Shown here: piece by piece, positions 8,917 to 36,988 of the stretch
Numbering within the stretch: position 1 is the first letter of the stretch
How the letters are laid out: the number at the start of each line of letters is the position of its first letter
Source: Luidia sarsii
Lineage: Eukaryota; Echinodermata; Asteroidea; Paxillosida; Luidiidae
Assembly: GCA_949987565.1 (NCBI GenBank)
Contig: OX465116.1
Coordinates: forward strand, 3,096,287 to 3,160,286
Reading direction: 5' to 3'
DNA: 64,000 nt
Notes under the pieces: generated by a model
Databases searched by the model: none
What the model was told of the DNA's origin: nothing
The model's input: the letters and a program-made list of their open reading frames with translations, nothing else
Position numbers and translations under genes: made by a program

Positions 8917-9216
8917 ATGGCCAACACCGCTGGCATGCTGATAGTGACCCTGGGCGCTCTGGCCGTGTGTCTGTTCGTCATCATGCTGCCGTCGCTCATC
9001 GTGACGGCCCGACCCTACGGCAGCTGGGTCTTCCAGGAGGTCAAGTGCGAGTACAGCGCCCAGAACGAGGAGAACAGCCGTCTGAACTGCTTCCCCGAGA
9101 TCAAGATGCCCACGGAGCGGGAATGCCGTGCCCGCGGCTGTTGTTACGTGGACGTGACCCCCAACAGGGAGCACATGGTGCCCGAGTGCTACCTGCCCAT
9201 TGGGGTGGGCTACGAG
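8917..9216 (+). CDS. GH31 gene 2 exon 1: signal anchor and trefoil domain
   Basis: It encodes residues 1-100. The ATG at 8917 (context GAAAGATGG) is followed at once by the hydrophobic anchor [19 protein letters not shown] and a six-cysteine trefoil with [12 protein letters not shown] and PECYLP. Donor TACGAG|GTAAGC, phase 0. An overlapping frame starting at 8910 is a shadow. Confidence 0.92.

Positions 9217-36988: not shown

Follow-up and report, generated by a model that had tools for sequence, protein, structure and literature searches.

Does a gene with the anchor, trefoil and GH31 domains of a sucrase-isomaltase type glucosidase still encode an enzyme when both of its catalytic aspartates have been replaced, and what might the protein do instead? 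The question is raised by a glycoside hydrolase family 31 (GH31) gene of the sea star Luidia sarsii, located in a stretch of 64,000 nucleotides of contig OX465116.1 (positions 3,096,287 to 3,160,286 of the forward strand; C19:3096287-3160286 in the assembly, which has 470.9 Mb in 227 contigs). We refer to this whole stretch as the window, and positions below are counted from its first base. Judging from sequence comparison across echinoderm classes, the product of this gene is very probably not a retaining GH31 glycosidase and has very probably been kept by selection.

A GH31 gene without its catalytic aspartates

GH31 enzymes work by a retaining mechanism with two aspartates, the nucleophile in the motif WIDMNE and the acid/base in LGDN, while the Asp of NRD, the first Asp of DIDYM and the His of RNHN make further contacts with the sugar. 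In the L. sarsii protein the nucleophile position is T507 and the acid/base position R607, so that at neither site is the residue of a GH31 glycosidase found. In addition, the NRD Asp is replaced by P266, the first DIDYM Asp by G391, the RNHN His by F666 and the WIDMNE Trp by I505. These six residues, together with R591 and D636, are all (8/8) at the numbers given in the first-pass annotation of this DNA. Its five catalytic substitutions are all present, but they are an undercount, as the Asp of DPAI (T429), RNHN N665 and N667, NRD R265 and VWPG V469 are altered besides. Because the nucleophile and the acid/base are gone, the protein should be incapable of the two-Asp retaining mechanism.

The gene model was rebuilt from the raw sequence, independently of the first reading, and then compared with orthologs. 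The result (8917-36988, plus strand) was the same phase-consistent gene that had been described before, with 23 exons and 2868 nt including the stop, encoding 955 residues with no internal stop. A GT donor is present in 21 of the 22 introns and a GC donor in the one after exon 17, with an AG acceptor in 22/22. All 23 exons were recovered by tblastn with the Acanthaster and Asterias orthologs as queries; a candidate exon 12 at 22504-22646 was dropped, the ortholog sequences leading to 22097-22214 instead. GC content at third codon positions of the exons is 0.724 vs. a GC content of 0.458 in the introns. Pfam matches in the protein comprise a trefoil (PF00088, residues 51-94, 30.5 bits), the barrel (Glyco_hydro_31_2nd, 348-707) and the C-terminal domain (Glyco_hydro_31_3rd, 715-813), i.e., the TIM-barrel and C-terminal domain of the GH31 fold family, with one barrel only and no tandem pair of GH31 units in the 955 residues. 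The most hydrophobic 19-residue stretch is 6-24 which, together with a helix at 3-30 in the model of the sea-star ortholog P0001, predicts a single N-terminal membrane anchor.

The main possibility that could have overturned this picture was that other exons restore WIDMNE or LGDN. We masked the model exons and searched 8.9-37.2 kb with 11 GH31 protein queries, obtaining 79 matches, the best with an E value of 0.45, and no such exon. D-x-NEP, LGDN, RNHN, D-x-DYM and WIDM were absent from the plus strand of the introns, a search in which a motif split by an intron would go undetected. Given the lack of an intact intronic motif and the best E value, exons with restored motifs are unlikely.

Orthologs and age of the losses

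Homolog searches (the best 120 of 1303, the best 120 of 1389 and the best 120 of 802 matches) led to 307 fetched matches, of which 43 were used in a tree and 264 omitted by choice of taxa. The closest proteins among the matches listed were those of Acanthaster planci (80.9% identity), Patiria miniata (80.4%) and Asterias amurensis (76.6%), over 950-954 columns. All three are labelled "sucrase-isomaltase, intestinal-like", and the urchin orthologs sucrase-isomaltase-like. We compared eight rows: this gene, the three other sea stars, the urchins Diadema and Lytechinus, the sea cucumber Holothuria, and P0004, a sequence of 944 codons whose one contig is listed as 2962. P0004 is most simply a transcript, since the gene has 23 exons in this sea star.

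The nucleophile column is Thr in all eight rows, and thus in 7/7 database orthologs of the eleutherozoan part of the group, and the acid/base column is R, K or N, never Asp. At the WIDMNE Trp the rows have I, V or D and at the DPAI Asp T, M or N; R-x-[FY]-[RK] takes the place of RNHN in 8/8 rows. The residue after T507 is D, E, M or Y. R591 and E510 are retained in every row. D636, which had been noted as kept along with R591, is indeed present in this gene and in the other three sea stars, but the two urchins, the sea cucumber and P0004 have Asn there. Positions 266 and 391 vary by class as well. Outside the catalytic motifs, an insert at residues 154-170, mostly gap in active rows and partly aligned in a crinoid protein, carries D166 and W169 in 8/8 rows. 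Besides the six trefoil Cys, the eight rows share those at 522, 548, 638 and 650; C18, within the anchor, is restricted to the four sea stars, and no membrane-proximal Cys outside the trefoil is conserved across the eight. The juxtamembrane residues P25, P33, W37 and F39 are invariant in them.

Of the active rows used for comparison, 37/37 have the two catalytic Asp, the Asp of DIDYM and of DPAI, and the His of RNHN. Among 461 nucleophile-aligned places in the 307 matches (gap-only cases being left out for the first 200 proteins), Thr was confined to the seven database orthologs. The same species or genera also have paralogs in which WIDMNE and LGDN are present, i.e., P0112 (Acanthaster), P0115 (Asterias rubens), P0106 (Holothuria), and P0098 and P0110 (Lytechinus). 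Vertebrate proteins with other letters at the nucleophile (often V followed by S or N, like a read-through GT donor) were judged to be gene-model errors and excluded from the dead enzymes. Two departures at the acid/base were seen elsewhere: Glu in the spider GH31 proteins P0225, P0262 and P0275 (LGENLSTW), and Asn in one GH31 unit of rat Mgam2 (P0162, P0187; HWLGNNAASW), whose nucleophile region resembles a read-through splice donor.

Phylogeny and a crinoid intermediate

The tree was built from 849 columns, leaving out the catalytic columns and their neighbours, and 47 rows: the 43 fetched matches (two of them split into halves), this gene and its upstream neighbour. The human MGAM halves are pieces of one predicted isoform and look like copies of one unit; no result depends on them. 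The eight dead rows formed one clade with the C-terminal half of a predicted protein of the crinoid Antedon (support 100/99). As they do so even without the catalytic columns, convergent loss was rejected. Inside the clade the crinoid branches first, then the sea cucumber with the urchins (95/92), and then P0004 with the sea stars (100/99), a position that suggests that P0004 stands where a brittle star would be. The branching follows the accepted order of the echinoderm classes, and the simplest reading is therefore that the clade descends from the echinoderm ancestor. The next rows outward are the acorn worm protein P0085 (Glandiceps, 89/83) and three Branchiostoma proteins (P0208, P0209 and P0213; 80/79). 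In each of these four proteins both catalytic Asp and the residues of DIDYM, DPAI and RNHN are present; the NRD Asp is found in 2/4, and the insert at 154-170 in none of them.

The crinoid half has the nucleophile Asp (GIMIDYNEPS) and RNHN, but His occupies the acid/base site (WMGHNRAEW), and the first Asp of DIDYM and the Asp of DPAI are replaced by Gly and Leu, respectively. It also has W738, N378 and N793 of the clade and a partial insert with D166, R167 and W169. A nucleophile Asp beside a His acid/base suggests that loss of the acid/base preceded that of the nucleophile.

Constraint, pocket and predicted fold

Between Acanthaster and Asterias the orthologs of this gene are 76.9% identical vs. 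71.2% for the active paralogs P0112 and P0115 (the Asterias species differ), with tree paths of ca. 0.30 and 0.41, respectively. By these measures this gene has diverged among sea stars about as much as active paralogs have. The earlier proposal that catalysis was lost and the protein retained thus agrees with what we see, the seven database orthologs being likewise without the Asp pair. Over the eight rows, 217 of the 877 columns compared are invariant.

To describe the pocket we used 41 columns, a set based on GH31 motifs and drawn up with the losses already in view. Columns conserved in active rows were lost at 12/37 places in the pocket vs. 17/160 elsewhere (odds ratio 4.0, p 0.003, an optimistic value with a set chosen post hoc). 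Within the four sea stars the pocket looks constrained, with a conservation of 0.894 vs. 0.753 for random barrel columns (2 of 500 sets as high). The net charge of the pocket columns goes from ca. -5 to ca. 0, and R or K is found at 607 in 6/8 rows and at 667 in 8/8. Newly conserved acidic positions include 150, 166, 270, 739 and 864; when a new catalytic carboxylate was sought among the conserved acidic positions, only 270 adjoined a catalytic motif in sequence, and its loop is of low confidence in the model. The fold predicted for P0001 is intact, at 1.8-1.9 Å from the N-terminal SI and MGAM subunits, and its top structural Z (48.1) is to GAA.

Genomic neighbourhood

A Pfam search of the genome gave at least 23 GH31 matches. 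Directly upstream of this gene (Table 1), on the same strand, is a GH31 gene with DMNEP, LGDN, RNHN and DIDYM; loci on C4 and C10 (4.56 Mb) also show DMNEP, LGDN and RNHN. The tree row of the upstream neighbour was assembled from tblastn matches, one of which overruns an exon end and puts V in the nucleophile column; the following exon reads DMNEP, and the row was excluded from the active counts. The Antedon prediction has an intact GH31 half followed by the half-dead one, the same order as here, and one dead (P0010) and two intact (P0098, P0110) proteins of Lytechinus have the same value, 29425516, listed as longest contig. Taken together, the arrangement fits an old tandem pair.

Table 1. 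Features of the GH31 gene and of its upstream neighbour in the window.
Feature	Position	Strand	Basis
3' part of tandem upstream GH31 gene; first match C19:3076763, outside window; exon ends approximate	1172..5486	+	
Exon 1: short cytosolic tail, membrane anchor, trefoil	8917..9216	+	gene model; Pfam trefoil
Predicted single membrane-spanning anchor, ca. residues 7-29, type II as in SI/MGAM	8935..9003	+	hydropathy; P0001 model helix 3-30
Trefoil (P-type) domain, six Cys (44, 58, 70, 75, 76, 91); Pfam match 51-94	9046..9198	+	
Exon 2	10689..10829	+	gene model
Exon 3	12827..13026	+	gene model
Clade-specific insert, residues 154-170	12845..12895	+	alignment
Exon 4; P266 codon 14114-14116 (NRD Asp position)	13960..14137	+	gene model; alignment
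Exon 5	14642..14738	+	gene model
Exon 6	14942..15054	+	gene model
Exon 7; GH31 barrel begins (residue 348)	15950..16075	+	gene model; Pfam
Exon 8; G391 codon 18148-18150 (first Asp of DIDYM)	18133..18261	+	gene model; alignment
Exon 9; T429 codon 18840-18842 (Asp of DPAI)	18840..18959	+	gene model; alignment
Exon 10; I505 (Trp of WIDMNE)	20849..20962	+	gene model; alignment
Exon 11; T507 codon 21333-21335 (catalytic nucleophile position)	21333..21420	+	gene model; alignment
Exon 12	22097..22214	+	tblastn; gene model
Exon 13; R591 retained; R607 codon 23463-23465 (acid/base position)	23369..23505	+	gene model; alignment
Exon 14, 35 nt	24094..24128	+	tblastn; gene model
Exon 15; RIFR (664-667) 29425-29436 replaces RNHN; D636 retained	29332..29451	+	gene model; alignment
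Exon 16	30797..30954	+	gene model
Exon 17, GC donor	31526..31613	+	gene model
Exon 18	32341..32409	+	tblastn; gene model
Exon 19	32526..32668	+	tblastn; gene model
Exon 20	33338..33432	+	gene model
Exon 21	34441..34490	+	tblastn; gene model
Exon 22	35025..35201	+	gene model
Exon 23, including stop	36917..36988	+	gene model

The window also contains tandem repeats. Intron 14 is nearly all a 27-bp minisatellite of ca. 178 copies (24390-29209), which yields a meaningless minus-strand open frame of 1604 residues (24286-29100) that could be mistaken for a gene. Two arrays of a nearly identical 155-bp unit lie ca. 57 kb apart, at 1448-3097 (10.6 copies) and 59928-60955 (6.6 copies). Others are at 11012-12295 (31 bp), 35620-36481 (10 bp), 49580-50125 (CT-rich), 54125-55193 (GA-rich) and 58933-59679 (GCCT). 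An open frame on the minus strand (40823-41596) has a C-type lectin domain (36.7 bits) and, under the cut-off, a PAN-like stretch (17.3 bits).

Weighing the explanations

We regard the protein, with a probability of roughly 0.7, as an ancient, selectively kept GH31 pseudoenzyme that probably resides on the cell surface. It would be a type II membrane glycoprotein with a trefoil and GH31 ectodomain of the sucrase-isomaltase/maltase type, derived from a deuterostome lineage of GH31 in which the closest proteins of amphioxus and acorn worm have both Asp. The acid/base Asp would have been lost in the echinoderm ancestor, or independently in the crinoid line, and the nucleophile replaced by Thr in the ancestor of the other classes, the fold staying under selection. 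Its job is most likely binding at the cell surface without cutting. A near-neutral pocket with R-x-[FY]-[RK] instead of RNHN may hold a ligand uncut, and/or the ectodomain may partner another surface protein. A ligand in the converted pocket is our leading guess, held at somewhat below even odds; a protein partner, perhaps the product of the neighbouring gene, is a more tentative idea. The loss of catalytic carboxylates and the gain of basic residues in the pocket would suit anionic glycans (e.g., sialylated or sulfated), and a speculative scenario, which we think unlikely, is that an echinoderm GH31 alpha-glucosidase lost first its acid/base and then its nucleophile and turned from cleaving alpha-glucans into a cell-surface receptor for such glycans. 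Several observations weigh against the pseudoenzyme reading or parts of it. Positions 266, 391 and 636 vary between echinoderm classes, the 17 of 160 conserved positions lost outside the pocket set show that loss was not confined to it, and the active pair P0240-P0221 has a tree path of 0.24, below the 0.30 of this gene. Over all eight rows the conservation of the pocket (0.585) does not significantly exceed that of the remaining barrel (0.53; 60 of 500 random sets as high), and a single ligand common to the phylum is therefore unsupported. Support for the acorn-worm and amphioxus links is moderate, and the crinoid intermediate is a single predicted protein joining two GH31 units.

The class-variable pocket positions and the losses outside the pocket are also what would be expected of a decaying gene whose residues drifted after redundancy, its frame open by chance. 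This we consider very improbable for 955 codons open across 23 exons, with orthologs in sea stars, urchins, a sea cucumber and P0004, a divergence resembling that of active paralogs and the six trefoil Cys in 8/8 rows. Even less credit can be given to an annotation or assembly artefact, in which wrong exons were joined and the true catalytic ones lie in introns: the polypyrimidine tract before exon 11 is weak by eye, but independent orthologs have the same residues and the search of the introns for unsplit plus-strand motifs found none intact. An unusual active enzyme, working on a different substrate through other residues or by substrate assistance, would be compatible with R591 and E510 in all rows, with the conserved pocket of sea stars and with the new acidic positions. 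However, only 270 of these adjoins a catalytic motif, in a poorly modelled loop, while R, K or N stands at the acid/base position and D, E, M or Y after T507, and we hold this improbable. More room must be left for a hetero-oligomer, in which the protein would be a non-catalytic subunit or a folding or trafficking partner of the upstream active GH31 or of another membrane protein. The halves of SI and MGAM stay together, and dead GH13 heavy chains serve transporters. The adjacent intact gene, the Antedon fusion in the same order, the value shared by the three Lytechinus proteins and the invariant residues near the membrane are in favour, but tandem duplication alone may account for the adjacency and there is no conserved membrane-proximal Cys beyond the trefoil for a light-chain disulfide; we hold this possibility less likely than not.

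Relation to known proteins and implications

Sucrase-isomaltase and maltase-glucoamylase share with this protein the anchor, trefoil, barrel and C-terminal domains, but have two GH31 units instead of one, whereas here the nucleophile, acid/base and other sugar contacts are lost and the insert 154-170 is added. The lysosomal acid alpha-glucosidase GAA is also a trefoil-GH31 protein of ca. 950 residues and the best structural match; however, it is catalytically active and GAA-type rows fall in a different clade of the tree. The rows nearest to the dead clade, from Glandiceps and Branchiostoma, differ from it in having both Asp and no insert. Dead glycosidases are a known kind of protein, beetle pectinase pseudoenzymes reportedly being an example. 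Similar in topology are rBAT and 4F2hc, likewise type II membrane glycoproteins whose glycosidase ectodomain is dead. They belong to GH13 and not GH31, and their membrane-proximal Cys bridge has no counterpart among the conserved Cys here.

Within GH31, a sand-fly paper describes dipteran proteins of NET37 and lysosomal type without catalytic residues, LlLysAglu1 having Gln at both catalytic sites and two NET37 (clade IV) proteins Pro at the proton donor; truncation of the lysosomal-type sequence of the sand fly is interpreted there as lost activity, and the mosquito lysosomal-type proteins are said to carry a trefoil (PMC8063059). The likeness to the echinoderm clade (absent catalytic Asp, trefoil in the mosquito type) is one of description, the tree having been built without dipteran sequences, and the differences are that they are insect proteins with Gln or Pro replacements and, in the LlLysAglu1 type, truncation. 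With non-catalytic GH31 proteins already reported in Diptera, the idea is not new, and the first-pass statement that a dead trefoil-GH31 protein is not a described class was too strong. No description of this echinoderm clade of dead and half-dead GH31 proteins turned up in searches of one open-access library that lacks most subscription papers.

Echinoderm proteins labelled "sucrase-isomaltase, intestinal-like" would pass for digestive enzymes, something that those of this clade are very probably not. From the acorn worm and amphioxus proteins with both Asp, through the half-lost crinoid copy, to the dead copies of the other classes, a stepwise conversion of enzyme to pseudoenzyme may be traced, and laboratory species (e.g., Patiria miniata and Lytechinus) would allow this conversion to be tested.
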